Shown one piece after another: positions 1,362-23,536 of a stretch of DNA of 27,961 bases. The position numbers were made by a program, and so were the translations under genes. The stretch is taken from the IMG/VR virus record IMGVR_UViG_3300042460_000591, positions 1-27,961 of that record; one strand, written 5' to 3'. A model generated the notes under the pieces. The model saw only the letters and a program-made list of their open reading frames with translations, made no database searches and was not told the origin of the DNA. The stretch is from a virus. Every line of letters starts with the position of its first letter. Within the stretch, counting starts at the first letter, position 1.

Positions 1362-3419
1362 TTAATTTTTTGTTGGAACAGGGTTTATAAATTTTATTTT
1401 ACAACACTTACAATTATTTATTACAGCATTACTGATATATAATTGGTAATTAGGAATTGCATCTTCACAATATCCTGTTGGGTCGTTTATTATTTGATTT
1501 GTCGTAAATCCTGTTATCGTTTGATTACTTCCTATTGTTAAATTATTAAGGTATTGTAGGTTTTGTTGAGCAATATCAATTGGTCCATCCGCGGTACAAG
1601 GTCCTGATAATGGTATCACACTACTTGTTGTATTATAAAGTGTCATTACTCCATAACCATCTATTGTTGTTATGTTATTATATGTTGGGGCTGGACTTAA
1701 TGTTGTTGGATAATAACTAAAGTTTGATGTCATATTCAAATTGAATGATATCGTAACACCTGCCGGTAATGTCGGTGCCGTAACCACAAATGTATCATTT
1801 ATCGTATTTACCGATAATGTTAGGAAATATGTCGTTGATGGTGTTGAGGTAATTTGTATTGTCGTTGTACTACCTACAACATTATTAGAATCCTTAACAA
1901 ATACGTCATAATATCCTGGTGCTAAATTTAAAAATATTGGAGATGTTTGATAGGTTATTCCCCCATCTATTGAATATTGATACGGGGCCGTTCCTCCAAT
2001 AGCACTAACAGAAATACTCCCATCGTTTTCACAAAGAGCGTTATTTTTTGTCACACTAACAGTCACTAATTGATTTACTGAACATTCTCCCGACAAAACT
2101 GTCATTTGTAATACTTCACCAGTACCATAAATTACCCAATTACTTAATGGTGGTGCTGAAGGATCATTATTAACCAAACTAATATTTGTACCGGGATATC
2201 CTGTGAATGTCCATTGGTTTGGTGTTGATCCTGTATTCCAATACATGAAATATTGACTATCAAGAGATGTCCAAGTTGGTTGACCATTAAGGTCATTCGT
2301 TGGTAATACCTCTATTTGTAGTTCTTGTGATAGGTATCCAAGTTCATTACTCCTAATAACTAATGAAACACATAATGGTCCATAATCGGTAGGAACCACA
2401 GGTATCTCACAAGGCCCGACATAAGATTCCGTTATTTGATATAGTGTTGAGGCCGAAACTTGCCAAGTAGATCCTGATGGGTATAAATCGCCATTATCTA
2501 ACAAATAAGAATAGAAGGTTCCGTTTTGACATTCCATTGATTGACAGAATGACCAATATTCGTATTGTGGTTGCCATATAACATACCCTAAAGTAGTTAC
2601 CCCATATGTTAAAATGTAATAAGGTTTACCATTTCTCACTCCTTGTGGTTGTGATGTTATATAAACAACATTCTCTTCAACTATACCTGAAACCACAAAA
2701 CACATTGCAGAATAAACTATTGTTTCTGCTGTTAACACACAGGTCGTAACTTCGGTGAAGTCCCCATAATAATCCGTTACCGTTGCGGTATAACTACCAA
2801 CACTTAAGTTTGTTAATGCCGGAGCATAACTACCTACTTCCCAAAATACTGTATATGGTGGTGTTCCACCAGTTATTAAAAGAGTTGTGGCTCCATCATA
2901 AGAAAATATGCTGGTTGGTTGTTGTGTTAAACATTGTATTTTCATTGGGAACAACGTTATTACATCACATTCGTTTGTTGGTTTTACCGTTGGTAATGTT
3001 GGTGGACATTGATTGTTTTCACATATGTCGGTTACCTTTAACGGTATATTAGATTCCGAATCAAATTGGGGATATATTCTACTACAAAGATTATATGTTA
3101 ATCCGGATATTAGACTTTGAACAACGATATTGTTATCGCAATCAACATATGTAACATCGGTATTTTCAGATTGGGTTTTTATAAAATAACAATAACATAA
3201 TCCCGAACAAGTTGTCCCACTATCAATTGTTATTTCTTCTGTTGGGACACATTCTATCTCACCAATATTTAAAACATAAAAACAACCGCTTGGACTTGTT
3301 ATTCCAGTAGTTTCAATATAAGCAAAACCTGAAGTATATGCGGTTAAACCACTATAGTTTGAAACTATTGGTTCTGAATTACCATTAACAGGATAAAGTA
3401 TGTAACAATTTTCTACCAT
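1362..3419 (-). CDS. SprB-repeat-containing adhesin-like virion protein (685 aa)
   Basis: A probable extracellular, beta-rich virion protein. Two segments match the SprB-repeat pattern (GGT-PPY start, LxxGxYxxxVxD end): residues about 173-232 (GGTPPYTVFW, LSVGSYTATVTD) and about 461-522 (CENDGSISVSAIGGTAPYQY, LAPGYYDVFVKD). In Bacteroidota these repeats occur in the long cell-surface adhesin SprB and other secreted proteins; in a phage they most plausibly form a fibre or decoration domain. Residues about 74-116 hold a Cys module with TYVDCD, resembling a segment of the 163-residue protein encoded at 4458-4949. The protein ends with a Cys-rich tail (NNCKCCKIKF). No signal peptide or membrane segment is evident. 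The start at 3419 follows a TATTTAT motif by 8 nt. Host-receptor binding is an inference. Confidence 0.75.
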   Translation of the reverse strand: MVENCYILYPVNGNSEPIVSNYSGLTAYTSGFAYIETTGITSPSGCFYVLNIGEIECVPTEEITIDSGTTCSGLCYCYFIKTQSENTDVTYVDCDNNIVVQSLISGLTYNLCSRIYPQFDSESNIPLKVTDICENNQCPPTLPTVKPTNECDVITLFPMKIQCLTQQPTSIFSYDGATTLLITGGTPPYTVFWEVGSYAPALTNLSVGSYTATVTDYYGDFTEVTTCVLTAETIVYSAMCFVVSGIVEENVVYITSQPQGVRNGKPYYILTYGVTTLGYVIWQPQYEYWSFCQSMECQNGTFYSYLLDNGDLYPSGSTWQVSASTLYQITESYVGPCEIPVVPTDYGPLCVSLVIRSNELGYLSQELQIEVLPTNDLNGQPTWTSLDSQYFMYWNTGSTPNQWTFTGYPGTNISLVNNDPSAPPLSNWVIYGTGEVLQMTVLSGECSVNQLVTVSVTKNNALCENDGSISVSAIGGTAPYQYSIDGGITYQTSPIFLNLAPGYYDVFVKDSNNVVGSTTTIQITSTPSTTYFLTLSVNTINDTFVVTAPTLPAGVTISFNLNMTSNFSYYPTTLSPAPTYNNITTIDGYGVMTLYNTTSSVIPLSGPCTADGPIDIAQQNLQYLNNLTIGSNQTITGFTTNQIINDPTGYCEDAIPNYQLYISNAVINNCKCCKIKFINPVPTKN

Positions 3420-3435: not shown

Positions 3436-4416
3436 TCAAATATTTGATTTTTGGAGATATGATTTCATATTCTCAATATATTTTATTGTTGAACTATTTG
3501 AATCTATATAATCAAAAACGTTTGGGTTTTTTATTAATTCCTCAATTGGGTCTATATTAATATAATCACCTTTAAAAAACTTTGTAGTTTTTAGATCTTG
3601 TGTTACTCCAGCCATATGTAGTATTGGTGTGGTATTGTACTTATTAATATCATCTGTTGCCCAACAAAATTCAAACTCATTTGTTATTTTTGTTTTAAAC
3701 CCATACATCCATAGGTTCCATAAAAGAGACCACATTTCTGCTGTCCAAAATTGTATTTGGCCTGGATTTATTGGGAATCTTTTTTGGTAGTCTAACATCT
3801 TATCATATAATGTGGTTGAATCTTTATAGATTTTATCCCAAAGTTCACAAGTTGTATTTTTGATCAGGTATTGTCCTCCACCTGAATTTTCTTGGTTTTC
3901 TTTTATTGTTTCAACATCAACCCCAATTACTTCAACCATCTCAGACATTAATTGTCCCTTTTCTGAGTTTGGGTGTTTTGATTCATATCTTTTACAACAA
4001 TCCATAATGTAATCATAACCAATATATCCAATGGTATCAGATAAATAACTTACCTCATCGTTTAACAACCGATTAAATTTCGGTAGTTCCCTAAATATAA
4101 TGTCCGCATCGTGTAGGAAAAATATCTTCCCATAATCAGGGTTTGATTGTATCCATTTTGATATTAAATATGGTTTAATACTTGGGATATAATGTTTTTT
4201 AACTCTATTATCAATAAAAAAGTGTGTGTTTATCCCCAAATTAACCAATTCTTTTGCCCCTTTAGATGGTTCTGTTTTACCAAGAACTAAACCTAAAACA
4301 ACGTGTATTTGATTTGGGTCAATACCCTTATCAATAAAGTTGTTAACATAAAGTTTAATTTGCCAAATAAAATAGGGGACATCAGGTTGGGCAGATACAA
4401 ATAAAATCTCTTTCAT
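3436..4416 (-). CDS. Probable GT-A-type glycosyltransferase (326 aa)
   Basis: The best clue is FFLHDADIIF at residues about 99-108: a hydrophobic strand followed by Asp-Ala-Asp (103-105), the DXD motif that binds the metal and nucleotide sugar in GT-A-fold glycosyltransferases. Supporting features are an N-terminal strand (EILFVSAQPDVPYF), a glycine-rich GGGQYLIKN at 179-187, like acceptor-site loops that precede a scorable strand, an aromatic stretch QIQFWTAEMWSLLW (220-233) and ILHMAG at 265-270, where a late His could be the second metal ligand. No signal peptide or membrane helix is visible, so it should act in the infected cell's cytoplasm. It sits between genes for a Thr-Pro-linker protein and a repeat adhesin, so a virion protein or a cell-surface glycan are both possible substrates. 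The overall layout recalls peptidyl-Ser/Hyp glycosyltransferases, but I cannot assign the sugar or acceptor. Confidence 0.6.
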   Translation of the reverse strand: MKEILFVSAQPDVPYFIWQIKLYVNNFIDKGIDPNQIHVVLGLVLGKTEPSKGAKELVNLGINTHFFIDNRVKKHYIPSIKPYLISKWIQSNPDYGKIFFLHDADIIFRELPKFNRLLNDEVSYLSDTIGYIGYDYIMDCCKRYESKHPNSEKGQLMSEMVEVIGVDVETIKENQENSGGGQYLIKNTTCELWDKIYKDSTTLYDKMLDYQKRFPINPGQIQFWTAEMWSLLWNLWMYGFKTKITNEFEFCWATDDINKYNTTPILHMAGVTQDLKTTKFFKGDYINIDPIEELIKNPNVFDYIDSNSSTIKYIENMKSYLQKSNI

Positions 4417-4457: not shown

Positions 4458-4949
4458 TTAAGGACAAGGTCCTGAATCTGAGAATGCCCCACTACCTGAT
4501 ATTATTGTTGGGGTGGGTAAAAGGTATCCACAACGATATTCGGAACTAGCAATACCAACCAGAAGTATTTGTAACAACCCATCACAATCTGTATAATCAA
4601 ACGTAGCCCCTGCTGGACCACCCTCAAATAACCAATAAGTATTACAAGGTATTGTTGGTGTGGGAGTTGGTGTGGGAGTTGGTGTAGGTGTTGGCGTTTC
4701 TGTAGGGGTAGGTGTGGGCGTTGGCGTTGTCGGTATACAATATATTTCTTCAAATCTTTCACACCCAATTGAGTCTATTATTAATAAACCAACAGCAGGT
4801 GCGGTATTAAATTGTGGTGGTAATGTTATAGTAATAGGAGGCATTACTCCCGACCCAACATAGACACATTGATTACCATAAACATTACAACAATACGCAC
4901 TAAATGGTGGGGTTAACCCTGAAATTGAAGATATTGTTATTTCGTTCAT
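4458..4949 (-). CDS. Small Thr-Pro-linker virion protein (163 aa)
   Basis: Three parts are visible. Residues 1-72 form a small domain with GLTPPF, four Cys residues and LLIIDSIGCERF, reminiscent of a degenerate SprB-like unit. Residues 73-101 are an almost pure Thr-Pro repeat broken by one Glu. Residues 102-163 form a second Cys-containing module with YTDCDGLLQ, similar to residues about 74-116 of the 685-residue protein encoded at 1362-3419. The coding strand spaces the upstream stop and this start by only 3 nt, so it is probably translated together with the gene encoding the multi-repeat protein. A two-headed connector or small fibre protein fits the architecture, with an exposed, extended linker that is a plausible O-glycosylation target. 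Exact function is unknown. Confidence 0.7.
   Translation of the reverse strand: MNEITISSISGLTPPFSAYCCNVYGNQCVYVGSGVMPPITITLPPQFNTAPAVGLLIIDSIGCERFEEIYCIPTTPTPTPTPTETPTPTPTPTPTPTPTIPCNTYWLFEGGPAGATFDYTDCDGLLQILLVGIASSEYRCGYLLPTPTIISGSGAFSDSGPCP
4648..4735. repeat. Hexanucleotide-based tandem repeat encoding the Thr-Pro linker
   Basis: On the plus strand this stretch is built from variants of ggtgtn/ggngtt words with a period near 6 bases (one codon pair, Thr-Pro). The copies differ at third positions (ggtgtg, ggagtt, ggtgta, ggcgtt), so purifying selection or age has eroded a perfect repeat while the Pro-Thr sequence is kept. Gain or loss of a unit would change linker length without shifting the frame. 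Confidence 0.7.
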
Positions 4950-4952
4950 GTC

Positions 4953-7133
4953 TTATATACAAGTTACACAAGATATTTCATAATCAATAACCAATTTAAC
5001 CGTTATTTCGGTATCTTGTAGTGGATTGAATGGTTGTAAAATACAATCCTTAGTTATTTTTTCACATCCAGATGTTAAGGTAATTCTATTTGATATTAAA
5101 TCTACCGTAACATCTGTAATACCAACATATTCTTCTAATGCTGCAACAATACTATCTGACCAAACAATATCATTTGGATAGTCAGTGGCTCCTGTTGACA
5201 CATAAAATGGTTGTATTTTAATGTCACCATCAACGTCCGTATAAATTGAGAATGTTGCGGAATTTATAATACAATTTGTATCACCACTAGTAAGGTCTCC
5301 AAAACCTTCCAAATACATAGACCTAATGTTCCTTACACCAATAGATCCGTTTGGTTTAAACATGTCCTCACATATTGTATGGAACATATAATCACTATAT
5401 AATTTGGTTCCTAATAATGTAACCGATTTTGTTAGTGTACAACCACTACTATCAGTTATTGTTAAATCGTAAGTACCACTTGTTAGTCCAGTTATTGTTG
5501 ATCCTGTCTGACCAATAACATTTCCACTCCAACTTAATGTGAATGGAGGGACTCCCGAATATATTGTGGTCGATATTTGACCATCATTACCATTCACAGG
5601 ATTAATAGGGTTCAAATCAAAATACATATTTTGACTATAATTGATATAAATTGGGTAAGTTTGTATACACGCCGGAATTCCAGAATCTTGTACGGTTAAA
5701 GTATAATTACCATATAACAGGTTATTAAATATACCTATAGGTCCACTAGTTGTTGATGGATTGTATGTTGGCCCTGTTAACGTAAAGTTATATGGTAAAG
5801 TGCCACCAGTTGATACTGTAACCTCTAAAGATCCATTATTAAATCCACATGTGGTACCAACGGTTGTTGCTGTAACAGTATATTTATTAACCGAAATTAT
5901 ACTTGTAGTTCCTGTATATATACACCCAACTGAAGATACGGCATAAATATAAGTCCCATTTGGTAATCCGTAGAATGTTTGATTTGCATTACCAACAGTT
6001 CCCGTTTGAATAATTCCTGTTGATCCAGATATTTGTATTTGTAAATTAACGGCTGATGTTGCTCCGTTATCAACAATAATTTGGAGTGTCCCGTCGTTTG
6101 TAGAACAGGTGGAATTTGTTGTTATAGCATTTACAGAATTAAATGATCCTGGAGTGTTTAAAGTAACAGAAGCACTATAAGTACAAAGACCAGCATCCAT
6201 AACATAAACATTAAACACGCCTGTAGGTACACCACTAAAGGTAAATGATGTATCAAAAGATATTCCCACTTCACCTGTTGACCCACTATAATAGTATGGT
6301 CCGGTACCTCCAGTTAGAATTGCAATAACTACACCATCATTTTGGAAACAACTTGGTGGTGTTACAATAAATCCAGCACTACCAACGGCCTGTACTTGTG
6401 TTACTGTTATCGCACTTGACGACTCACAATCAATAGGGTTTGTGATTGTTACCGTATAGGTACCAGCGGTTAAACCTGTCATTGTATCCCCTGTTTGTGA
6501 CCCAACATTAGATGACCAACTATATGTATATGCCGAACTAGGCGTTAAACCAGTAATAAATATTTTACCACTTGATGACGCACATCCCGCATCATCAACA
6601 ACATAATAACCGAAATTAAACGGTGTTGATGGGTTGATAATAACAGATGCCGTAATTCCCGTACACCCACCACCATCATTAGCGACTATATAGTATGTTC
6701 CGGCAGATAAATTTGTAAATTCAAAATAAGAGTTTGGTGTTGAACCACTAGACACTACATTATTTAAAATATCGTAGAGATCAAATGTTGCATTACCATA
6801 AACTCCAGAAGTGAATCCAGTTACGGTACCATTATTAAATCCACAGGTAGTATTTGATGAGTCAATTGTTGCGGTAGTCCCTGTTGAAATATAAACCGTT
6901 TGTAATCTTGATGTGGATGACCCATCTATTATTTGTAAAAAATATGTTCCTCCCGTTAAGTTCTCCGCACTATAAGATGTTGTTGATGCCGATGTTGGTA
7001 ACGTACAACCAGATCCAACACATGTAACCCCAAAAGGTGGTGTATCTCCATTTATTAAAAAACTTACTGAACCAACACCTATGTTTTCACAATCACCGGT
7101 TACATTATAACCATATACATTAATATATCCCAT
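4953..7133 (-). CDS. Multi-repeat SprB-like adhesin/fibre protein (726 aa)
   Basis: About seven beta-sandwich-type units of 70-80 residues occupy residues 1-575; the first is degenerate. Typical units start with Cys and an acidic/Gly turn (TCGFNNGTVTG at about 96, CFQNDGVV, CSTNDGTLQ, CGFNNGSLEV), continue with GGT-PYxY, and end with LxxGTYxxxxTDxxGC (for example LTSGTYDLTITDSSGC). This is the signature of SprB repeats (PF13573-type), known from flavobacterial gliding adhesins and other secreted Bacteroidota proteins. Residues about 576-726 form a different C-terminal domain (TFSIYTDVDG, PFYVSTGATDYP, DIVWSDSIVAALEE, YEISCVTCI) that resembles the C-terminus of the 995-residue protein encoded just upstream. 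The start overlaps the upstream stop as TAATG, so translation is coupled. A role as a repeat-built fibre attached to the baseplate through a shared terminal domain is inferred. Confidence 0.8.
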   Translation of the reverse strand: MGYINVYGYNVTGDCENIGVGSVSFLINGDTPPFGVTCVGSGCTLPTSASTTSYSAENLTGGTYFLQIIDGSSTSRLQTVYISTGTTATIDSSNTTCGFNNGTVTGFTSGVYGNATFDLYDILNNVVSSGSTPNSYFEFTNLSAGTYYIVANDGGGCTGITASVIINPSTPFNFGYYVVDDAGCASSSGKIFITGLTPSSAYTYSWSSNVGSQTGDTMTGLTAGTYTVTITNPIDCESSSAITVTQVQAVGSAGFIVTPPSCFQNDGVVIAILTGGTGPYYYSGSTGEVGISFDTSFTFSGVPTGVFNVYVMDAGLCTYSASVTLNTPGSFNSVNAITTNSTCSTNDGTLQIIVDNGATSAVNLQIQISGSTGIIQTGTVGNANQTFYGLPNGTYIYAVSSVGCIYTGTTSIISVNKYTVTATTVGTTCGFNNGSLEVTVSTGGTLPYNFTLTGPTYNPSTTSGPIGIFNNLLYGNYTLTVQDSGIPACIQTYPIYINYSQNMYFDLNPINPVNGNDGQISTTIYSGVPPFTLSWSGNVIGQTGSTITGLTSGTYDLTITDSSGCTLTKSVTLLGTKLYSDYMFHTICEDMFKPNGSIGVRNIRSMYLEGFGDLTSGDTNCIINSATFSIYTDVDGDIKIQPFYVSTGATDYPNDIVWSDSIVAALEEYVGITDVTVDLISNRITLTSGCEKITKDCILQPFNPLQDTEITVKLVIDYEISCVTCI

Positions 7134-10120
7134 TAGTTATTACAATATAATTCAAAGGAAATTCCTACGTTTATTTGAAAGTCGTCAGAGTTTGGTTGAC
7201 AATTATTACTATATACCTGAACCAAATCATTGTCCGTATCTATATTATAACTATATCCTAATGTGAGTAAACTATCTAACACATCTTCTAACGCTACCAC
7301 CCACTGAGTGTCTGTTGGGGCAGATAAATTACCAATACCATTAAAGAAAGGGTATTGTGTTAATGGAACACCATTCAATCTTATATCCACATACCATGTG
7401 GTAACAACTGATGATGGTTGACAAACAGAAGCATTTAAACCATTAACACTATAGAAGTTATCTAGAGTACTATTCAACACAACACCAAATGAGGTTGATT
7501 GTGGATCACTATTCCAAGGATATAGTGGACAAGTTACCTGTTGTATTGGGCAATCATAAACATATAGTTGTGTAGTAAGTGAACAAGGTTTACAAGGAAC
7601 CGGGATAATTTGACACCCAACTTGTCTTCTCCATACAAATTTTTGTCTATGGAATATTGAATTTTCAAGTCTAACACCAGTATTCCAAATTGTGGTTGCC
7701 GGTATCATTTGTTCTACTAATCTAACCCAATAATCCCCCATACCATTTACATAATCAATCATCGTTTGATATGTAAAATTATCGTTAGGAATTCCTATAG
7801 TTTGTCCTGACTCCAAATACTTCCAATAAATAGATTGTAGTGTTGGATACCCTCCAGTTTTACCATCCGTAATGTATTGACGATTTCTAACATTTATCAT
7901 ATTATGCCAAAAAGTTTGAGCAAACTCAAAGAATGTTTTTTGTTTTGGTTTTGGTATAATAACTGTCCAATCTATTCCACCAATTTTTGGGTATGGGTTT
8001 GGTATATTACAAGGTGATGGTGGTGAGTAGAATAGTCCTTGTTCCGGAATTGGGTAATTATATTGTCTTGACATTGTCCAAACATCATAAACAAGACCTT
8101 GTGATGGGTTCATAAACACATCAACATTTTTTACATTAATTGTTAAACATTCTTCTCCAACAGAATAATACGCATTAAATCCACCATCAAAACTTTTTCT
8201 TAATGTTGGTTCATTATTAACCCAACTTTTTTTATTATCAATAACACTTCTTAATTTGAAACCTAAATCCATAAACGGAAATTGTTCATATCGTTGTAGA
8301 TACTCCAGACCATAATTAAATGGTAAAAGTGTTGTTTGAAAATTTGGGTTGTTTCCGGTAAATGTTAAATTGGTTGGTATGAATGCTGCCGGCATTCTAT
8401 GTTCTGGTGTTGATTCAAACCAACCACCACCAATTTGATAAAAATACGTTTCTGATGGGATTGGCATTTGTGGACAACCAAAATCATCAACAGGATAATC
8501 ATTTCGTATTGTTGTTACATTTTCGTTTGATGTAGTTGTTGTAAATCCAGTATATTGTACTCCATGTATTGAAAATACGTTACTAGTTTCATAAACCGAA
8601 AATTGTTGTTGGTAAGTTCCTCCCGTTATTTGGAAAAATTGTTGTTGGAACTCACCCATATTAATTCTTTGGTCGGCAACATAAATATACTCGTTAAAAT
8701 CAATTAACGCCTCAGGCGCACCAACCATCCTTAATAAACACTCAATAGATTTTCTTGTTCCTTTAGACTTAAATAACCAAGCGGAATTTAATATTAGGTT
8801 TCTATAGAATTGATAATTTAATTCTTCTGGTGTTTGACCTATTTGTAATCCGGCAAATGTGTTTGGTTGGTGTGTAAAGACCGCTTGTAATAATTCTTCG
8901 TTTGAAATTGGTGAAAAGTTTGTAGTCCACCCTAATGTTTGAGCTAAATTTTTAAGTAATTGTGATGGTATATCATTTTTAATTGTATAATGAACACTAT
9001 TCATGTTTCCTAATGCGGTAATAAATTGTCTTGTCTCATCAAAACTTCTACCATATATTTGCAACAATTTCTCATATTTTTGATCTGGAGTGTCAAACTC
9101 TTTTAAGGCTCCTGTTGTTAAAAATCTTGAGATTATATTTGTATTGTAGGTATCTAAATTTATTGCGAAGTTATTGATCTTTATCAAATAGTTATCAAAA
9201 CTAACTGACGTAATGTCCAAATTCCAAATACCACTCTTAGGGAAAGTGGCAAACGTACTAGTGATGGTATATGTCCCATCTTCATTTTGAATTGGCACTT
9301 TAAAGGTTGATGTGTAAGCCGGCGTAATTTGTCTGTTAAGTAAGAAGTTCTCAACAGGTGTAAAATCCATGTTAAACACCTTATTTACTTCATAATTGTT
9401 AGGTCTAATAACTAAATAATCGTAAGTTATTTGATTACCCTCGAAAGGATTACCATCAACAATCAACCTTAATTCTGTTGAGGTACTTGTTGTTGGGTAT
9501 AAGTAATTTATAGGATACTCTATTCCATTTAAATATATGACATACTTCTTATAGTTTTCCGTCATATTTCTCAATACGGAAACCTCATTTTCTCTTAATA
9601 AAAAGTTTCTTGTCGCACTTTCAGTGTAATCAATATCAAATGGGTTTCTAATTGATGAAATACTAACCTCTAAGTAGGTCTCATTTTCTGTTTGGTTATA
9701 TGAAATATTATGTGCTGTTTCTTGTGTTGAAAAAGTCGCTGTTTGTGGCGAAACTTCTAAACCAGCCGGAAAAAAATTAATAATCTTCGCTATTGATACT
9801 GAAAATCTTTTAACTAAAGAACCATATTGAGTAAAGTTCGTTACCTGAGATAAGTCATAATTAGGGTAAATCCTATAGTTTTTGGCAATTATTTCTCTTG
9901 ATTCGGCAATTGTATCAATATTAATTGATTCCAAATTAATTGGTTCAGAAAACGCCCCAATAGTAAAAGTTCTATTCTGTTTTTCACTTATTCCGGTGGT
10001 AAAATTAAAATTTGCCTGAGTTAAACCACCACCAGCAACAAGTTGTACCCCAACTAAGTTGTTAGAGAACTGATTTGCTGCACTACTCTGTGGTGGACAA
10101 GTAAATTTATTTATTGCCAT
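7133..10120 (-). CDS. Baseplate protein with P2 gpI / T4 gp7-like tail segment (995 aa)
   Basis: Residues about 340-475 carry the recognisable part: YEKLLQIYGRSFDETRQFI, LLKNLAQTLGWTT, and near 450-475 FKSKGTRKSIECLLRMVGAP. The last fits the xKGTxxAIexLLrxxGAP signature of the Tail_P2_I family (P2 gpI). That protein and its T4 counterpart gp7 pair with gpJ/gp6 to form the baseplate wedge core. The rest is unusual: a long beta-rich N-terminal part, a middle section (about 480-860) rich in aromatic residues, a Cys cluster (CQIIPVPCKPC) near 855, and a C-terminal domain of about 100 residues shared with the neighbouring multi-repeat protein. The start forms TAATG with the upstream stop, and the stop forms TAATG with the downstream start. 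I am fairly confident of a wedge role but less sure that it replaces gp7 fully. Confidence 0.7.
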   Translation of the reverse strand: MAINKFTCPPQSSAANQFSNNLVGVQLVAGGGLTQANFNFTTGISEKQNRTFTIGAFSEPINLESINIDTIAESREIIAKNYRIYPNYDLSQVTNFTQYGSLVKRFSVSIAKIINFFPAGLEVSPQTATFSTQETAHNISYNQTENETYLEVSISSIRNPFDIDYTESATRNFLLRENEVSVLRNMTENYKKYVIYLNGIEYPINYLYPTTSTSTELRLIVDGNPFEGNQITYDYLVIRPNNYEVNKVFNMDFTPVENFLLNRQITPAYTSTFKVPIQNEDGTYTITSTFATFPKSGIWNLDITSVSFDNYLIKINNFAINLDTYNTNIISRFLTTGALKEFDTPDQKYEKLLQIYGRSFDETRQFITALGNMNSVHYTIKNDIPSQLLKNLAQTLGWTTNFSPISNEELLQAVFTHQPNTFAGLQIGQTPEELNYQFYRNLILNSAWLFKSKGTRKSIECLLRMVGAPEALIDFNEYIYVADQRINMGEFQQQFFQITGGTYQQQFSVYETSNVFSIHGVQYTGFTTTTSNENVTTIRNDYPVDDFGCPQMPIPSETYFYQIGGGWFESTPEHRMPAAFIPTNLTFTGNNPNFQTTLLPFNYGLEYLQRYEQFPFMDLGFKLRSVIDNKKSWVNNEPTLRKSFDGGFNAYYSVGEECLTINVKNVDVFMNPSQGLVYDVWTMSRQYNYPIPEQGLFYSPPSPCNIPNPYPKIGGIDWTVIIPKPKQKTFFEFAQTFWHNMINVRNRQYITDGKTGGYPTLQSIYWKYLESGQTIGIPNDNFTYQTMIDYVNGMGDYWVRLVEQMIPATTIWNTGVRLENSIFHRQKFVWRRQVGCQIIPVPCKPCSLTTQLYVYDCPIQQVTCPLYPWNSDPQSTSFGVVLNSTLDNFYSVNGLNASVCQPSSVVTTWYVDIRLNGVPLTQYPFFNGIGNLSAPTDTQWVVALEDVLDSLLTLGYSYNIDTDNDLVQVYSNNCQPNSDDFQINVGISFELYCNN

Positions 10121-13041: not shown

Positions 13042-14860
13042 CTACTGCCGGGTCTGCTATTGTTGTTATGTTCGGTGGAACCAATCCTATTGTTGCATAA
13101 TCACTTGGTATATTATATGCCTCAGGGGTAACTCTAAATATTGTATTCTCATATGGATAATGTTTTCCGTTTAAGAATGGGTAATCAACCCCAATCCCAT
13201 CAGTATCTACATATCCATATGGATACTTATCTCTCCATCTAAAAAGTGCGGATAATGTTGAGTAATATGCGTAATCCGGAATACCAACAACATTAACACC
13301 ACTTCCTTCCTCTATATAATCGGAGAAGGATGATATTTCTATTGGGTTGTGTGGTTGATAGAAATAACCAGGTTGATTTTCGGGTGGCAAATCATTGTCC
13401 AATATAAACCAATTTTGGTTGTATTTTATTTTATGTTGGTGTGTTGAAATAACTCTCTCTAATTGTTCAAAATCATTCCATTCACAATAATCACCATCTA
13501 AGGTGTCTCCAGTTGTTAATAACTCATTATAAAAGAATTCGGTAGGAACATTATTAAATGTTGCATCACCAATCGCCGTGTAGTAAAATGATTGTGGTAT
13601 GTTAGTATTTGAATTAACATTATTTTGATCCCACCATATTTGTGGTTTTCCACCCTCCAAATAAGTGTTAAAATGCCAACCTTGTTTCATATTACTTGTC
13701 CACCCCAAATATCCTCTCCAAATTGTTGTGAAAAATAAACTTGTTAATGGTCTTCTTTGGTTGTCCTGCAATCCGTTAATATCGATATCGCAATTAAATG
13801 AAAGGGTGTATGATCTAGCGCCTTCCTTTACAGATGTTCTTGCCTTTTGATTTGGTGTTAATGGTTTAATCTCACATTTTGTTTTATCACCATAAATGTT
13901 TTGTTCAAATCCAGCATTTACCAAAACAGAACACTCAGGAGTAGTTAATATTTTATGTCTTCTTATGTAATAAGAACTTACCGTATCTGAAGAATTTGCA
14001 AGATTTATAATCCTTTTGAAGGTTCCTTGTGTAAATTGTTGGAAAGTTGTTCCTATGTATCCAACATTTGCAATATTAAATATGTAGTCTTCAGATCCCG
14101 ATCCACTATCCCCCAAACTTGAGACTTGGAATGAGTCTTGCGTTCCATAACTAATTGATAGTTGGACAAATTCCCCAACACTTAATCCATGCATCATAGG
14201 ACACTTAAATGATATTTCTCTTAATTGGGCGTTTGACCCATTTAAAACTATGAATGGTAATCCATCACTGGCAACCCAAGTCCAATTAAATAATGTGTTG
14301 GGTTCAACAGCATATAGTGTTTTATTGTAATCATTTTCAAATGGATAGCTCATATAATGAGACCAATTATATGTTGTCGCACTAACATTTTTAAAAAGAA
14401 TGTGGTTTTGTGGTGGTATTGTATATCCCGGAACATTATTATCTGTTCTAATAAAATCAAACTCAGGGTATTGTGGAAACCCTTCCCACGGAATTGTAGT
14501 CACAAACGGGTTTGGTGGCACATTAGAGGTATTACCAGTAGTACTAATACCTCCTGGGTAAGCCAAAATAGAATTACCTAAAGCATTTGTATAATATAAG
14601 TTATCCCTAAATGGTGAATATATTGATGTCCCAGTTAAGGCATTTTCAAATAAAACCGTAAATTTCGTAACCGGCCTAAATGTTGTCGATTCTTGTCTTT
14701 CTTGGTCAAATACTTCGGCAAGATTTAAATCAACAGATCTATCAAACTCAACAAGATTTTTACTTGTTTGTTCCAAAGGCACATTTATAAACTGATCGGT
14801 TCTTGGTGCCTGTTGATATCTTTGGGTAGATAATATTATACGACTAGTTGGGTCAACCAT
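13028..14860 (-). CDS. Unrecognised large baseplate/tail-region virion protein (610 aa)
   Basis: A large, soluble, aromatic- and Asn-rich protein with no signal peptide, membrane helix or catalytic motif I can name. The N-terminal region (LSTQRYQQAPRTDQF, VDLNLAEVFDQERQ) looks like an extended binding arm. A central segment at about 325-400 is better ordered (GDKTKCEIKPLTPNQ, then SYTLSFNCDIDINGLQD). Trp/Tyr-rich sequence follows (GYLGWTSNMKQGWHFN). The start overlaps the stop of the giant 1880-residue gene as TAATG. In T4 the comparable position downstream of gp6 holds gp7 and gp8; I see no sequence evidence that this is gp8. It is best described as a virion structural protein of unknown fold. 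Confidence 0.65.
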   Translation of the reverse strand: MVDPTSRIILSTQRYQQAPRTDQFINVPLEQTSKNLVEFDRSVDLNLAEVFDQERQESTTFRPVTKFTVLFENALTGTSIYSPFRDNLYYTNALGNSILAYPGGISTTGNTSNVPPNPFVTTIPWEGFPQYPEFDFIRTDNNVPGYTIPPQNHILFKNVSATTYNWSHYMSYPFENDYNKTLYAVEPNTLFNWTWVASDGLPFIVLNGSNAQLREISFKCPMMHGLSVGEFVQLSISYGTQDSFQVSSLGDSGSGSEDYIFNIANVGYIGTTFQQFTQGTFKRIINLANSSDTVSSYYIRRHKILTTPECSVLVNAGFEQNIYGDKTKCEIKPLTPNQKARTSVKEGARSYTLSFNCDIDINGLQDNQRRPLTSLFFTTIWRGYLGWTSNMKQGWHFNTYLEGGKPQIWWDQNNVNSNTNIPQSFYYTAIGDATFNNVPTEFFYNELLTTGDTLDGDYCEWNDFEQLERVISTHQHKIKYNQNWFILDNDLPPENQPGYFYQPHNPIEISSFSDYIEEGSGVNVVGIPDYAYYSTLSALFRWRDKYPYGYVDTDGIGVDYPFLNGKHYPYENTIFRVTPEAYNIPSDYATIGLVPPNITTIADPAVDECE

Positions 14861-17800
14861 TATTCTTGTGGTGTTTGAACATAAAGTTTATAGAATCTGT
14901 TTATCGCAGTTTTTCCATTATTTAAACCAAAGTAGAAGTGGTATGGTCCACCAACAACCACAGCGTCATCAGGTAATCCACTATCTTTACCATCTAAAAC
15001 AATTCCTCCCCCTGGTTGAGGTTGTGGTATACCATTAATATCGTAATTTGCGATAAAACCTAATTCGGTTGTTTGGGTTTTATATTTTTCATTAGAACTC
15101 GTAAAATTCAAAGACTGATATTGTTTTTTGAAAAATCCCCCATTATAATCCGCACCAGCGGTATCGGTATACCAATTATTATCTTCAGTTCCAAATATGT
15201 TTTGAGCACTAACATTAGTTGGGGCACTTGGTTTGATTGACCACTTATAACTAGGGACAACTTGTGATTTAGGATATCCAAAGTTTTCTTCAATTAGAGG
15301 GGTAAAACTAAACGTTTCAATACCAGGAGATGCAATCTTTCTATATCTTAAATCGTTATCGGGTGTTTGGAAGAATAATCCCATAACAGGTTTTATGTCA
15401 CTAGCGTTAGCGGCCCCATTATCTCCAAAATATATATAATCATTTGGGTTAGGTTGGGGTAAGTTTTCGGTAATAAATGGCAATACTTCCCACTCAGAAT
15501 TTATTGATAACATTTGAGCCCAATCACCATCAATTCTATAGGCTCCTCTCGTACTATTAAAGAATTGTTCAATCCCTTTTCCTTCACTATTATTCCCACC
15601 TACACTTATTGGTATCATTCTTTGTCTAACACCATCATTTAATATTCTTGACAAAAACCCTAACTGAACAATATCCGAATTATCTTGATATGATGTTGAT
15701 TTTAATTGGTCAGCATAATATGATCCAAAATTACCTCCACAACATATTTCATTTATAAAACTATCTCTTGGACCTAAATCAACAACCGTAGTTGGGAATT
15801 GTATTTGTTTTACATTATACCCATACCCAGGGAATACCGATAAACTTGGTAGTAATGACGTTATTGTTGGAGAATTCTTACCAATAAATTTATCTGTTAC
15901 GTCGTTCCAAGGAGAAGACCTATAGTAGAAATTATTACTTATATCATTATATACGATTACATCGTCACAATAGTTATAGGTTGGGTTATTGGCAGTCAAA
16001 CCGTAACTTGTTTGTTTGTTAAAATTAAACATATATAATACACCATTTACCCAGTTATTTTGAAAAACTTGGGCGAATACCCCTCTACAAGCAGCAAAGT
16101 TCATAGTGAATCTAACTTTCCATTCTAAGAACAATCTTGCGTCGTCATCAAATTGGGCTAAGTATGTTTTATTTAACAAACAATAACAACCATTTATCAT
16201 TCTATTTGCAGGTATAGAGCATTGACCACTAGGAACAACACCAACATTTGAACCTGATCCGGTATAACACTCTAATGGAACCATTCCTTCACAAGATAAA
16301 GTACTTGTAAGTCCTGATGTGATTGGGTCTTGATCCGAACTTTCACCACTTGGTAAATCACCACCTGCACTTATTGTTGGTGAGTCTAACGCACCACTAG
16401 CAGCATAAACCGCAAAGTTATTATTTTGGTGAAGAGCATAACCTGTTTGGGTTTGGGTTCCATCTTCAACAGCTGTTGATGTTGGTAACCTATCACTTCT
16501 CATAACCATATTAACTGGGTTATTGAAGTTTATTGCGGGTAAACCATATCTATAGTAAGCCGGTGAATACGCAGCACTTAAATTACCATGAACATTTCCT
16601 CCATTAAACCATCCACTAAGATAATTGTAATATTGACCTATCTGACAATCTTGATCACAACTAGGTGAACTACCATTATCATTAGTATGTAAGGTCATAT
16701 TAAATGGTATGTTTAAGTCCCAAGCAGCAAAAGTACCACCACCAATGTAATCAGTTTGTTGTCTAGGTAATGTAAAATTAGATCCACCAAGTAATTGGTA
16801 AAGATTGCCCCCTTGTGTTATTTGAGATATTGTCTCCCACCCTAATATTGGTGTATATGGTGCTGTATTTGAACCTGGGGTATTATCGTCTGTCGCTAAA
16901 TAAAAATATGGTAAGTTTGATGTAAATCCCGAATATGCATTACCGTCAGGAGTAAATGTAAATGATGGGAAATATAAGTTAGCACTTGTATTTGTACCTG
17001 TATTATGACTTAGCGTTGCTTTACCTGCGGATGTCCCTTTAATAGGTTGGTTCATATAATACTGACCTGTAACTGATATGTTCAATGCAGAACCAAATGC
17101 CGATGTTTGTCCAAAAATTCTTGCTAAATCATATTTTATTGTTTGTGGTACCGTATTTGGGTCAACACCTCTAACAAATATACAAACCTCATATGTATCA
17201 TGATTAGACATTGTTTTTATAACATCAGGAACCGTATATATGTAAGAATTATTAATGGGTATGGGTAACAAAACATCACAATCGGGTACCGCAACTTGTA
17301 CGTCATGGAATAGATATGAACTTTCATAATATCCTGGAGTTGTCACTGATGATCCCGAAAATTGACTTACAGTCATACCAGTTATGAGTTGAAAATATTC
17401 TACGTCTGTTGCGTATTTCAAATAAGATTGTTCAACATTAGGGTTACCAGGTACTGGTAACTGACTTGATGGTGGTTGGTTAATCATAACAGTTGCACCT
17501 CCAGGAAAATTACTATTTCCGTTTGGATCTGCTGGGTTCGCATATTGTATAACAATCGGTATTGAACTACCTGTTACTGTTGTCCCTGTGATTGAGTTGG
17601 TTCCAAATTGATTAAGTGTTGCACCAGTTAAGTTAATTAACCTATTAGATGACCCAACGTCAGTATAATTAGGGTCTTGGAAACTACATAGTCCTCCAAT
17701 ACCTAATTGTGATGTGGTTCCTTGTTTCATTAAGATAACAACAACTTGATCTAAAAATGGTTGAGATCCAGGAATCTGTGGGTTAACAGTTGTCTGTATT

Positions 17801-20502
17801 CTATTAACACCTGTAAAATATTTATTTCTTAAATTAAACTCATTTAATTTCTGAGGGAATGTATCTGTAAGTGGATACGCAAAAAATCGTCTATCAGGGG
17901 TATTATCACCTAATTCTTTATCAGCCGCCCATAAGAATGGTTGAGGTGCATGTAATAATAACGACTCATCATTTGTGTATCTATTAGGGTCTGTAGAACT
18001 TAAAACATCATATCCCGATATTACTCGTTTAAAATCTAAAGTAGCTCTTACGGCAATTTCAACAGCTAAGTCCTGATCTCCAATTATTGTTGCAAATGAT
18101 TTAAAATTTCCATTAAAACCAGGACCACAATCAAATGGATCATCGTCAGGATCACCATTAACTGTAGTCCAAATTAAATTTGGGTGATCTATATTATACG
18201 AACCAGCAGAGTTGACAGGTGCGATCACACTATTTGCTGGTACCAAAGTTAAATTATACGCCCCACTAGAGGTTGATTGTGCGGCGGCATCTATAGATTG
18301 TTGCACACTATTTGTATCAAAATCATCATCTAATTCGGCATTTCCACAATCACAATCACAACTTGTACAATCAGGATATGAAATCATCGGTAGACCAATT
18401 CTTGGGAATCCTTTAACTTTAATCGCAGCAAGTACTGCAAATGCGGTAAATGCCGCGGCTAATGCTATTTTAAACGCCGCAATGGCAATCTGAGCAATTC
18501 CCCATAATAAATTCCTTATTGTTTCGGCTAACAAACCCGCATTAACGACAACCCCAAGTCCAACACTAAGTACCCCTAACGCATCATTTATCGCCGCAAG
18601 TCCTGTTTGGATTGCCTCAAGTCCCGACACAACAGCATCATAAGTTAAAAAAATACCTAACACAATAAGAAGGTATTTTAATATAGGCCACATAAATGCA
18701 ATTAAATGCGCGACAAATAAAAGCGTTAATATTGGAAAAGTTAGTATATTAATTAATATGTTGAATACGAAGAATATAAAATCAAAATTTCTAATTATGT
18801 CATTAACAGGGAACGTGTTAACATTTGATTTACACGTTCTATTATCAATTTCCTTAATTCCTAAGTGTCTTGCCCTACCAATACCATTTTTATATCGGTC
18901 AAGGAACATTGCGGTTGTATAAACTTTATTATATTTAAATTCATAAAACGTGTCTTCACAATTTATAGCTTCTTGTGGGTCATAATAGTCATCCCAATCT
19001 AAACTAAAAGCGTAAGACCTTAAAAGACTGAATAAGGCTTGTGGATATTGTGTAAATGTTAAAGTTTGAGGTTGTAATGGGTCAATAGGTGTTGCAACTA
19101 TTTGGAATGTTTGTCCAGCCGGTACCGTAATTGACTCTATGGTCCCCAAATAAATTTGACCATTTATATATATCTGATAACTGGCAACGTTATTAGTTGT
19201 TAGTGGTACTAACCCTATAGTTGATCCAAACACTATTGTATTACCACTTGTTGTCCCAACAGGTAATGTTGGATAACTATATGTTGTTGTTGATTGATTT
19301 AATGGGTCAGTATTTGAAGAAACCCAACCGTGTTCCTTAATGTTAGGAACTAAAAAGTTAGCCCTTAAAAAACTACCTTGTAGTCCCTGTTCATTTTGCC
19401 ATTTGAATTTAAACCTATATTTTCCTTTTGTTGGTATTCCTTTTTTAGGGTCAGTTGAGAATGCTTGTTCCCCAAATTCGTTAGTATAGATATAATCCAG
19501 ATTCATTGGGACATTCGCAACAAATGTTCCATCGGCATCAATAATTTTTGATCCTCCCTCAAATGAGTATTGTTCAAGTATTGGTAATCCCAATGAGTCA
19601 GAATTTATGGTTTGTCTAATTGCCAACACCTCACCAGGACCAGCAACTAATTCACATAAGTTACCTGTATTGTTTTTTGGTTTACAACTTACTTTAAGAG
19701 CATCATCATCGGTTGTTGAGATGATTGACCCCATAAATATAGATGTGGGTTGTATGTTAATATTTGCCTGTTTTGTTAAATCAAAATCAACACGGGTAAT
19801 ACCCACCTGACAAAGATCGGCTTCACCCCAGAATGGACGAACATCCACATCAAATACCAAGTTTTTAATTTGTGGTAATTCCCTAAGATTTGTTGAGGTT
19901 TTAAATGTTGCACCATCAACTTGCGATTCTGTCGCTAAACCTTGTTGTATTAAATCTTGTGGTGAAAGTGAAAAACACCCCATGTCCGATAGGTCAATGT
20001 CCATTACGATTGTTTGGTTTCCAACTGGAACACCCATTATCATAAAGTCACCACTTTCATTTGTCTTAACAGTAAAACGATAATATTTATCAAAAACTTC
20101 AATATATGAAGAATCCATTAATACATCTCCCTTATTTGGAAATGATCCAGTTGATTGATGTCCCCTATATGATGGTAATTTTGGCAATAGATTATATCTA
20201 TACCCCTCCTCAGTTGTATCTCCGATTGTTTTAAACGGATAAAGTTCGGCAATAAATGGGTTTAACGAATCGGCATCATCCAATGGAATAAACACAGATA
20301 CCTTAGCATTTGGTAATCCGTAACCACCATTAACAAAAACCCTACCAACAACAACCCCATAATCGGCACAAAAACGAGTATATACGTCATTTCCAAGAAT
20401 CTTTAAAGAAAGTATCTCTAATTGTTCCCAATCTTGTTCTAAGTTAAGGTTAATATATTTGTCAACCCCCACTTGGGTTCTTATTCTATATGATTTAGAC
20501 AT
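14860..20502 (-). CDS. Giant virion protein with carboxypeptidase-regulatory-like domain and hydrophobic core (1880 aa)
   Basis: The largest gene here. After MSKSYRIRTQVGVDKYINLN, residues about 45-165 resemble a carboxypeptidase-regulatory/Ig-like fold: VVVGRVFVNGGYGLPNAKVS, then FTVKTNESGDFMIMGVPVGN. Residues about 567-700 are strikingly hydrophobic, with several membrane-helix-length stretches (FDFIFFVFNILINILTFPI, WPILKYLLIVLGIFL, then Ala-rich AAFKIALAAAFTAFAVLAA). Directly after them lies a Cys cluster, CTSCDCDCG (about residues 711-720), and an acidic stretch. The remaining 1100 residues are Gly/Asn/Ser/Thr-rich, beta-type sequence. The gene follows gp6 and is coupled to the next gene by TAATG. 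A tail-tip or baseplate protein with a segment able to insert into membranes during genome entry is possible, but the hydrophobic block could also pack inside a multimer. It is larger than T4 gp7 (1032 aa), and I see no alignment to it. Confidence 0.7.
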   Translation of the reverse strand: MSKSYRIRTQVGVDKYINLNLEQDWEQLEILSLKILGNDVYTRFCADYGVVVGRVFVNGGYGLPNAKVSVFIPLDDADSLNPFIAELYPFKTIGDTTEEGYRYNLLPKLPSYRGHQSTGSFPNKGDVLMDSSYIEVFDKYYRFTVKTNESGDFMIMGVPVGNQTIVMDIDLSDMGCFSLSPQDLIQQGLATESQVDGATFKTSTNLRELPQIKNLVFDVDVRPFWGEADLCQVGITRVDFDLTKQANINIQPTSIFMGSIISTTDDDALKVSCKPKNNTGNLCELVAGPGEVLAIRQTINSDSLGLPILEQYSFEGGSKIIDADGTFVANVPMNLDYIYTNEFGEQAFSTDPKKGIPTKGKYRFKFKWQNEQGLQGSFLRANFLVPNIKEHGWVSSNTDPLNQSTTTYSYPTLPVGTTSGNTIVFGSTIGLVPLTTNNVASYQIYINGQIYLGTIESITVPAGQTFQIVATPIDPLQPQTLTFTQYPQALFSLLRSYAFSLDWDDYYDPQEAINCEDTFYEFKYNKVYTTAMFLDRYKNGIGRARHLGIKEIDNRTCKSNVNTFPVNDIIRNFDFIFFVFNILINILTFPILTLLFVAHLIAFMWPILKYLLIVLGIFLTYDAVVSGLEAIQTGLAAINDALGVLSVGLGVVVNAGLLAETIRNLLWGIAQIAIAAFKIALAAAFTAFAVLAAIKVKGFPRIGLPMISYPDCTSCDCDCGNAELDDDFDTNSVQQSIDAAAQSTSSGAYNLTLVPANSVIAPVNSAGSYNIDHPNLIWTTVNGDPDDDPFDCGPGFNGNFKSFATIIGDQDLAVEIAVRATLDFKRVISGYDVLSSTDPNRYTNDESLLLHAPQPFLWAADKELGDNTPDRRFFAYPLTDTFPQKLNEFNLRNKYFTGVNRIQTTVNPQIPGSQPFLDQVVVILMKQGTTSQLGIGGLCSFQDPNYTDVGSSNRLINLTGATLNQFGTNSITGTTVTGSSIPIVIQYANPADPNGNSNFPGGATVMINQPPSSQLPVPGNPNVEQSYLKYATDVEYFQLITGMTVSQFSGSSVTTPGYYESSYLFHDVQVAVPDCDVLLPIPINNSYIYTVPDVIKTMSNHDTYEVCIFVRGVDPNTVPQTIKYDLARIFGQTSAFGSALNISVTGQYYMNQPIKGTSAGKATLSHNTGTNTSANLYFPSFTFTPDGNAYSGFTSNLPYFYLATDDNTPGSNTAPYTPILGWETISQITQGGNLYQLLGGSNFTLPRQQTDYIGGGTFAAWDLNIPFNMTLHTNDNGSSPSCDQDCQIGQYYNYLSGWFNGGNVHGNLSAAYSPAYYRYGLPAINFNNPVNMVMRSDRLPTSTAVEDGTQTQTGYALHQNNNFAVYAASGALDSPTISAGGDLPSGESSDQDPITSGLTSTLSCEGMVPLECYTGSGSNVGVVPSGQCSIPANRMINGCYCLLNKTYLAQFDDDARLFLEWKVRFTMNFAACRGVFAQVFQNNWVNGVLYMFNFNKQTSYGLTANNPTYNYCDDVIVYNDISNNFYYRSSPWNDVTDKFIGKNSPTITSLLPSLSVFPGYGYNVKQIQFPTTVVDLGPRDSFINEICCGGNFGSYYADQLKSTSYQDNSDIVQLGFLSRILNDGVRQRMIPISVGGNNSEGKGIEQFFNSTRGAYRIDGDWAQMLSINSEWEVLPFITENLPQPNPNDYIYFGDNGAANASDIKPVMGLFFQTPDNDLRYRKIASPGIETFSFTPLIEENFGYPKSQVVPSYKWSIKPSAPTNVSAQNIFGTEDNNWYTDTAGADYNGGFFKKQYQSLNFTSSNEKYKTQTTELGFIANYDINGIPQPQPGGGIVLDGKDSGLPDDAVVVGGPYHFYFGLNNGKTAINRFYKLYVQTPQE

Positions 20503-22424: not shown

Positions 22425-22886
22425 TTAAATATTGATTATTATGAAATCACTTGATTCAAATGCCGAATCTGTAATTTTATAATCTATTTTTATTTTTGCG
22501 GTGTGCTCTAATTGACTAATGTTAGTCACCCTAAATTCCCTTTCTCCGTATTTATTTACAGTATTACCTTTATCTTCCAAACCCGCAGATCCAGGTTCTA
22601 CCGTTATTGTGGTTACTTGTAGATTTGGCATATATTTACCAATAGAGTCTCTAATTTCAGATTCTATATCAGAAAATGTTGGCCCGTCTAATGGTTCAAA
22701 AATATATTCATATAATCTACTACCAAAATCAGGTAAAAAATATCTTGATCCTTTTCTTGTTAATAATAAATGAACCAAGTTACTTCGTATCTCAGCTTCA
22801 GTTGTGTTATTAACATCTAAATACCTACCATCAAATGAATCAACAAAAGGAAAATTTATACCATATGTAATACCATTATTTGCCAT
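22425..22886 (-). CDS. 25: Baseplate wedge protein, T4 gp25 / gpW-like lysozyme-fold protein (153 aa)
   Basis: A gp25-family baseplate protein (T4 gp25 has 132 residues) that contacts gp6 and starts sheath polymerisation. The conserved core is visible: EAEIRSNLVHLLLTRKGSRY (about 30-49), FLPDFGSRLYEYIFEP (50-65; 'PdFGs.L...iFep' is the family signature), DIESEIRDSIGKYMPNL (73-89) and VTTITVEPGS. Despite the family's historical name this fold has no lysozyme activity. The C-terminal extension (REFRVTNISQLEHTAKIKI) is a beta pair. The gene comes first after a terminator, with the start 5 nt from a TATTTAT motif; the leader also contains AGGA, a weak Shine-Dalgarno candidate. gp6 follows by 6 nt. 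Confidence 0.92.
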   Translation of the reverse strand: MANNGITYGINFPFVDSFDGRYLDVNNTTEAEIRSNLVHLLLTRKGSRYFLPDFGSRLYEYIFEPLDGPTFSDIESEIRDSIGKYMPNLQVTTITVEPGSAGLEDKGNTVNKYGEREFRVTNISQLEHTAKIKIDYKITDSAFESSDFIIINI

Positions 22887-22981: not shown

Positions 22982-23530
22982 TTAGTATCTTCTATTTCGT
23001 CTATAATAACTTTCATTAGTGTTAGATTTATCTTTAGCCAATAGTTTTGCTAATCCCATTAATAAAGCGGTAACCCCCCAACTAATTGCAAATCCCGCAA
23101 TCATAGGTGCTCCAACAGTTCCAGCTAAAAGACCGCCAATTACTATTGCTGCCGGAACTCCACCCCAAGCCGCAATATTTGCTTCTCCTATTCCGTGTAG
23201 AATATTGGCAACTTTTTCTTTTGGATCCATATTCTCATCACCTTCACTCATTTCACCACCAATATTATCAGCTACATTTTGAACTGCGGCATGAGCTTCT
23301 TTTGGTGAAGTATATGCGTTGATACCCAAATCATTTAAAGACGATTCAAGTTTTCTTTTTTCGTCATCACTTAGATTAGAATAGATATCTTCAATTTTCA
23401 TTTCAACTTTAGGTTTGTTAAGAATTGACTCAACATTACCAGCAATTTCATCTTGTTCTTCTTCTTCTTTAATAACCCGTCTAACAAGTCTAGATAAATC
23501 TCTTTCTGTTAATCTTACAATTTTTCCCAT
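22982..23530 (-). CDS. Small protein with conserved N-terminal peptide and C-terminal hydrophobic segments (182 aa)
   Basis: The first 22 residues (key piece RLTERDLSRLVRRVIKE, 6-22) nearly match those of the preceding gene product; 21 of the first 32 residues are identical. A charged, probably helical middle (ESILNKPKVEMKIEDI, SDDEKRKLESSLNDLG) follows. Residues about 117-140 and 143-165 are two hydrophobic, Gly/Ala-rich stretches (VPAAIVIGGLLAGTVGAP, MIAGFAISWGVTALLMGLA), and the tail is basic (YYRRNRRY). Two helices plus a charged C-terminus could fit a holin, but the long soluble N-terminal part and the shared leader suggest another membrane or virion-associated protein. The start is preceded by TTAAAAAATT, as in the paralogous gene 6 nt away. 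Function unknown. Confidence 0.65.
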   Translation of the reverse strand: MGKIVRLTERDLSRLVRRVIKEEEEQDEIAGNVESILNKPKVEMKIEDIYSNLSDDEKRKLESSLNDLGINAYTSPKEAHAAVQNVADNIGGEMSEGDENMDPKEKVANILHGIGEANIAAWGGVPAAIVIGGLLAGTVGAPMIAGFAISWGVTALLMGLAKLLAKDKSNTNESYYRRNRRY

Positions 23531-23536
23531 AATTTT

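Follow-up and report, generated by a model that had tools for sequence, protein, structure and literature searches.

Gene organization of the window

The window analysed here comprises 27,961 bases, the entire length of an IMG/VR virus record, and its long open reading frames (ORFs) all lie on the minus strand. The gene order is DnaB-type helicase, adenosylcobalamin-type ribonucleotide reductase, gp25-like protein, gp6-like protein, five unnamed proteins, protein B, protein A, protein C, a 326-aa protein and a 685-aa SprB protein (Table 1). The matches of the helicase and the reductase are both below the NCBIfam cut-offs. Protein B is encoded downstream of the gp25-/gp6-like baseplate genes, with five genes between the gp6-like gene and B. 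The gp6/gp25-like genes suggest a phage with a contractile tail, and A and B are probably tail proteins of an uncultured bacterial virus, presumably located in the virion.

Table 1. Positions of the genes and protein parts discussed in the text
Feature	Position	Strand	Support or remark
685-aa protein	1362-3419	minus	one SprB repeat (E 2.2e-9); Cys-rich end (CKCCK)
326-aa protein	3436-4416	minus	phrog_4417 (unknown function), E 1.5e-66
C protein, tip module, residues 107-163	4461..4631	minus	related to the A-fused tip module of L018
C protein, Thr/Pro linker, residues 73-106	4632..4733	minus	sequence, linker mask
C protein, N-terminal ~72 residues, small, conserved (PPFSxxxCxVYGNxC)	4734..4949	minus	
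A protein, 726 aa	4953-7133	minus	ORF list
A copy of the shared domain, A residues 575-726	4956..5411	minus	hhalign, AF2
A shaft, Ig-like/SprB-type repeats, residues 1-574	5412..7133	minus	Pfam SprB E 4.5e-7
One-base overlap of B stop and A start (last base of B = first base of A)	7133..7133	minus	
B protein, 995 aa	7133-10120	minus	ORF list
B copy of the shared domain, B residues 851-995	7136..7570	minus	hhalign, AF2
B core, conserved, residues 1-850	7571..10120	minus	putative baseplate protein
1880-aa protein	14860-20502	minus	long hydrophobic stretch mid-protein, odd for a baseplate region
gp6-like baseplate protein	20577-22418	minus	TIGR02243, E 2.3e-14, below its cut-off
gp25-like protein	22425-22886	minus	weak TssE match, E 0.0039
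182-aa and 114-aa neighbouring proteins	22982-23881	minus	near-identical N-terminal peptide RLTERDLSRLVRR

The shaft of A matches the Pfam SprB model (PF13573) with 29.8 bits, above the gathering cut-off of 28. The terminal domain that A shares with B has no Pfam, PHROG or NCBIfam match in either protein of the window. It starts between residues 561 and 597 in nearly all relatives of A, and at residues 627 and 695 in two distant ones. In relative L010 (11003-13252) the A gene is present as two ORFs (174 and 491 aa), and L025 and L030 have a single 749-aa ORF; the split is a frameshift or sequencing error.

The core of B gave no credible Pfam match in the 20 members scanned, the stray matches being PriCT_1 and vWF_A, in one member each. 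B had been called gpI-like in a first-pass annotation; its position downstream of the gp25-/gp6-like genes agrees with that name, but no gpI-type Pfam match was found at E <= 0.1 in the 20 members. Mean pairwise identity per 50 residues is 0.51-0.81 in the core and 0.41-0.51 in the domain, and 8 of the 13 cysteines of the window's B fall in residues 831-995. Several distant B proteins are longer than that of the window (up to 1125 aa in L266-L278; B 844-1119 in L298-L300), and in some of them the extra length precedes the domain, which starts at residues 960-978 as compared with ~851.

Protein C, of 163 aa, has no Pfam match in the window. The 326-aa protein has no sequence match in the PDB and contains the motif HDADI, suggestive of the DxD motif of glycosyltransferases; it could be a modifier of the Thr/Pro linkers. 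Similar proteins are found after the tip genes in several relatives. The 685-aa SprB protein is a possible further shaft or fibre. For the 1880-aa protein, searches of Pfam and PHROG gave nothing at E <= 0.1 and a search of NCBIfam nothing at 0.01. The 182- and 114-aa proteins look unlike one another beyond their common N-terminal tag.

Conservation of the A and B pair

Relatives were collected in five scans of viral contigs, all of metagenomic origin, yielding loci L002-L264 and L266-L316, with several loci per contig in places. Three of the scans kept the best 80 of 388, the best 80 of 281 and the best 80 of 561 relatives, and the counts given below refer to that sample. The phage group is common, with at least 561 related stretches in IMG/VR. 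The domain is present in all 111 distinct full-length B relatives, and an A protein with its own copy directly follows B in all 101 cases with at least 2,600 nt behind B. The pairing is constant in the sample, and the one-base offset between the two genes is identical in 76 of the 101 adjacent pairs. Part of the loci was fetched with the domain itself as the query; among those fetched with the whole of B only, the domain is found in 96 of 96 and A is next in 87 of 87.

No third copy of the domain reached E <= 0.01 in the 15 scanned contigs, 91-273 kb in length (selected from the longer ones, and possibly incomplete), in which the A profile also finds the B neighbour in 6 of 15 and the B profile the A neighbour in 10 of 15. 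The other ORFs of L002-L264 likewise have no third copy, the best whole-protein E-values being 0.4 (B profile) and 2 (A profile). Genome contigs searched with alignments A3 or A4 contained no relative, and a search of phage records gave no match for the A copy and one weak match for B. A tree built from 64 copies of each type places the A set and the B set on opposite sides of a branch supported 100/100, and the duplication is therefore older than the sample. We also looked for recombination that would have exchanged the entire A shaft relative to B and saw none: distances of the A repeats and of the B core correlate with r 0.91 (484 pairs with a B-core distance below 0.2).

Homology of the terminal domains

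The first-pass annotation had noted by eye that the last ~100 residues of the two proteins resemble each other. The resemblance from the window's own pair alone is borderline: the Smith-Waterman score is 105, as compared with a shuffled mean of 59.6 (sd 10.4), and was reached in 1 of 2000 shuffles; two-sequence BLASTP gives E 0.007, and phmmer, with the A copy as query and the 18 proteins of the window as targets, finds B at a non-significant E of 0.73. The homology becomes clear once relatives are added. Queried with the A copy of the window, phmmer retrieves B from L013/L029 at E 2e-4. The profile-profile comparison that had been proposed as a check was run with HHalign on 64 A and 69 B rows and returned Prob 96.2 and E 2.2e-9 over 95 columns, aligning A residues ~619-723 with B residues ~898-994. 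With 20 rows on either side the values are Prob 92.4, E 5e-7 (local) and Prob 79.5, E 1.8e-6 (global), and with 82 on either side Prob 96.7, E 3.9e-10.

Controls for the comparison of 64 and 69 rows were negative: reversed profiles reached 0.1-0.2%, the best of 100 column shuffles scored 21.9 as compared with 59.0, and stretches of B 150 columns long, with a start before column 800, stayed at or below 0.7%. When each A copy was compared with the B copy of its own locus (96 distinct pairs), the median z was 5.7 and the lowest -0.3; shuffles scored as high in at most 1 of 300 for 83 of the 96 pairs, and in at most 15 of 300 for 90. As controls, a stretch of the B core gave a median z of -0.8 (maximum 1.2) and the reversed B domain a median of 0.05 (maximum 3.8). 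The C-terminal domains of A and B are homologous. The span first proposed for them, 4956-7400, does contain the shared domain, but its right border falls short, as the B copy extends 170 bases past position 7400.

Six cysteines of the A domain (alignment A4) and five of the B domain (A5) are invariant or nearly so. They include, invariant in both alignments, the cysteine after strand 4 (C116 of A in the motif SGC; C124 of B in NNC) and, as the annotation had described, a cysteine in the last strand (C148 of A, C143 of B). HHalign with 82 rows on either side pairs C124 of B with C123 of A and not with C116; the SGC/NNC pairing of the earlier reading is favoured by the distant A proteins of L293 and L299, which have no hairpin insert. 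Disulphides may form among the conserved cysteines.

Predicted fold

AlphaFold2 (AF2) models of the A and B copies have mean pLDDT values of 78.9 and 87.4, respectively, residues 1-20 of the A construct being below 50. The elements of the A model are H29-40, E45-60, E63-72, H81-92, E98-104, E109-114, (E117-121, E124-128) and E136-149, and those of the B model E10-15, H28-42, E50-65, E68-79, H87-100, E106-111, E116-121 and E131-143. Compared by order, the two predicted folds agree in the succession alpha-beta-beta-alpha-beta-beta-beta, including a first helix that lies outside the sequence alignment. The A model has an extra beta-hairpin (residues ~691-702), a stretch that is absent from the distant A proteins of L293 and L299, and the first strand is listed in B alone. 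The homology, the same predicted element order and the 100/100 split in the tree bear out the earlier description of a duplicated domain.

The best match of the B model in BFVD is a 714-aa phage protein named "SprB repeat" (17% identity, E 1.5e-5, TM 0.66 over the query), followed by a 985-aa protein resembling B itself (E 3.3e-4). Name and length suggest that these are A-type and B-type proteins, respectively. Foldseek against the PDB found no match at E <= 0.001 for either copy, and sequence searches of solved structures gave weak and scattered matches, the lowest E of 0.018 belonging to a metal-binding plant protein (32 positions aligned). The VIA-align rows (Z <= 5.1) mix flagellin, sheath, T7-type nozzle, T4 gp11 and DNA polymerase. 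The domain may be of T7-nozzle or sheath type; because these rows are weak and mixed, no fold family is claimed. For T4 gp11, the B model gives Z 4.3 with 1el6 (91 aligned, 3.9 A) and Z 4.4 with 5iv5_AF (88 aligned, 3.9 A), in the range of common arrangements and below the VIA-align caution line of Z 8; no T4 gp11 row is present among the 50 VIA-align matches listed for the A model.

Sequences that follow the domain in A

The extension past the domain in 107 distinct complete A proteins is at most 5 residues in 58, 6-40 residues in 10 and 41-789 residues in 39. A Thr/Pro linker is present in 32 of the 39 long extensions, beginning within 40 residues of the domain in 29, and is absent from the other seven; it is followed by one or more tip modules. 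Pfam matches above the cut-off were obtained for 3 of 10 tips scanned (DUF285 in L003, 4e-145; DUF285 in L076; LRR in L288). The other seven have none, and a PKD match in L076 is below the cut-off. DUF285/LRR repeats in phages are not new, as the gene table of a Vibrio jumbo phage names DUF285/BspA LRR proteins (PMC7765460).

A genes that share 85% or more DNA identity across 1,800 nt were compared, 61 pairs in all. Nine were open-ended and left out, 5 have the same extension, 39 have no extension and 8 are closed with differing length. In four of the last eight, from two lineages (L003/L004/L032 and L191/L197), whole tips differ and the DNA breaks between -8 and +35 nt of the last domain codon: at +35 in L003/L032, exactly at that codon in L003/L004 and L004/L032, and at -8 in L191/L197. 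The DNA matches again behind the tip in all four. L003 and L032, for example, are 99.0% identical up to the border and 97.6% over 4,279 nt behind the tips; the tips themselves, of 514 and 202 residues, match in the Thr/Pro repeats only. The border between constant and variable sequence lies at the A copy of the domain. Thr/Pro repeats invite misassembly of metagenomic contigs, but the agreement of the flanking DNA on either side makes simple chimeras less likely.

The remaining four pairs are of other kinds. L008 and L012 differ by a 32-residue extension, with a break at +2. In L017/L018 and L018/L033 the break is at +29 and a 94.8% match resumes within 59-122 nt; what parts these pairs early is thus an indel in the linker, and the module in which they differ comes later. 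L080 and L082 break at +191, inside the linker. Of the 39 pairs with no extension, 13 break at +96 to +241, either inside the C gene or past it, and six more stop there solely because contig L062 ends. We note a second breakpoint zone at ~95-250 nt past the A domain, in or behind the C gene (L044, L050, L058, L084 and others), where close relatives carry different segments, as long as ~2.7 kb in some cases.

Tips on B and C

In 108 of the 111 distinct B proteins, no more than 9 residues follow the domain. The other three (L298, L300 and L302), which belong to one distant clade, run on into TPTPTP and a tip; the B protein of L299 is identical to that of L300. Since a tip is found in only 3 of the 111, the case for a mounting role in B is a slim one. 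When A lacks a fused tip, the next gene usually encodes the small C protein, which may carry a linker and tip of its own, as in the window, L002, L060 and L065.

Tip modules are common to the different carriers. The tip of L302 B is 62% identical to the end of the L017 A tip over 55 aa, the L039 A tip matches the L003 C tip with 77% over 132 aa, and the tip of the window's C matches a module in the A protein of L018 with 42% over 50 aa. Single-linkage clustering at E 1e-4 sorted 72 tip segments into 24 clusters, 14 with several members and 10 of single segments. More than one carrier type is present in 5 of the 14, one of which includes B; the cluster with the tip of the window's C holds three C segments and one A segment. 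The suggestion of interchangeable tips made in the first-pass annotation is supported in altered form: the domain itself is not the tip, but tips located behind it differ between close relatives, and tip modules recur behind A, behind B and in the next gene.

Comparison with known systems

The arrangement is of a kind already known from phage T4, in which gp10, gp11 and gp12 are encoded by sequential genes, have a common fold and interact as products (PMC3004832). As in T4, neighbouring genes encode products with a domain common by descent, probably at the baseplate periphery and fibre connection, and the trait of sequential genes that share a domain recurs in A and B, adjacent in every one of the pairs examined. 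The relation of the T4 proteins is visible in structure and not in sequence, whereas here it is still visible in sequence, and Thr/Pro-linked tips are not described in the available part of the T4 account (PMC3004832). The branched tailspike of Ackermannviridae (CBA120 TSP1-4) is similar in that several receptor-binding proteins with exchangeable binding parts are joined via special modules (PMC8825819, PMC8432352). By comparison of the accessible descriptions, the assembly part of TSP4 is N-terminal, whereas the shared domain here closes the constant part. A resembles the SprB repeat adhesins in its shaft repeats, unlike in the shared domain itself, to which no Pfam, PHROG or NCBIfam model corresponds in the A and B of the window.

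Microcystis phage Mel-JY01 (PP395634) has adjacent homologues of the gp25-like (E 3e-10) and gp6-like (E 8e-45) proteins, and B residues 346-480 match one of its hypothetical proteins (E 3e-10; tblastn against all phage records, E 6e-5), the E-values other than that of tblastn being calculated for 14 proteins. A scan of 14 gene products of this phage detected neither domain copy (best E 0.034), which would fit a gain of the domain in the present lineage. Literature searches on gpI-type wedge proteins, SprB in freshwater and modular tips, covering titles and the beginnings of abstracts with most subscription journals outside their scope, brought up nothing on this system; within the same kind of coverage, SprB repeat combined with phage and tail surfaced a paper on Bacteroidetes toxins.

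Proposed role of the shared domain

We lean slightly towards the view that the shared domain serves as a tip mount that has been duplicated: a compact alpha/beta unit with which the constant part of each of the two neighbours closes. In this view B is probably a baseplate protein, and A is a shaft of Ig repeats whose gene comes directly after that of B. Beyond the final strand of the mount, the polypeptide would either stop or continue, usually by way of a Thr/Pro linker, to a tip that can be exchanged and that presumably binds the host. The fold of the domain itself may be what lets foreign tips attach. In the window both mounts would be bare, and the next gene, C, would carry the tip on its own small base and Thr/Pro linker.

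That the likeness of two small, Cys-containing and beta-rich domains arose by chance or convergence is very improbable. The non-significant phmmer result within the window and the lowest z among the own pairs would allow it, but the family comparison reaches E 2e-9 where shuffles, reversals and B windows fail, and in the contigs of 91-273 kb the sole cross-hit at E <= 0.01 is the neighbouring gene; the HHalign and own-pair controls rule this explanation out. A docking function of the kind suggested in the first-pass annotation, in which the copies bind one another or their own kind and thereby anchor the A shaft to B, the tips behind A being incidental, has an appreciable chance of being correct, though a less than even one. 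The constant adjacency of A and B with its frequent one-base overlap speaks for it, as do the divergence of the B domain, much faster than that of the B core and at the pace of A, and the interacting T4 proteins with their shared fold and sequential genes (PMC3004832). Co-divergence of the two domains beyond background is nevertheless weak, with a partial r of 0.32 that drops to 0.12 when the repeats of A are held fixed; control proteins H, F and G give 0.29, -0.08 and 0.08 against the B domain, and there is no peak along A. Docking alone also does not explain a linker and tip right behind both copies, but it is compatible with the tip-mount reading, and the two are not mutually exclusive.

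It is somewhat unlikely that each copy acts as an oligomerisation cap, trimerising or capping the end of its own protein, with tips located there merely because it is the C-terminus. T4 gp9, gp10, gp11 and gp12 are trimers (PMC3004832) and more than half of the complete A proteins stop at the domain, as such a cap would lead one to expect; the related tip modules behind A, B and C are compatible with it but not accounted for by it.

Extended to the three tandem carriers, the tip-mount reading leads to a more speculative and rather doubtful proposal. The mount, duplicated onto the baseplate protein and the shaft, would together with the small third base protein form a dedicated tip-exchange system, in which one lineage shuffles a common pool of Thr/Pro-linked tips among three carriers to give a combinatorial host-binding array at the tail. 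The locus provides a case, visible in sequence, of a probable baseplate protein and a neighbouring shaft that share a duplicated domain, as in T4, in an uncultured group. With the site of tip exchange marked, tip swapping and the assignment of hosts become testable from sequence.
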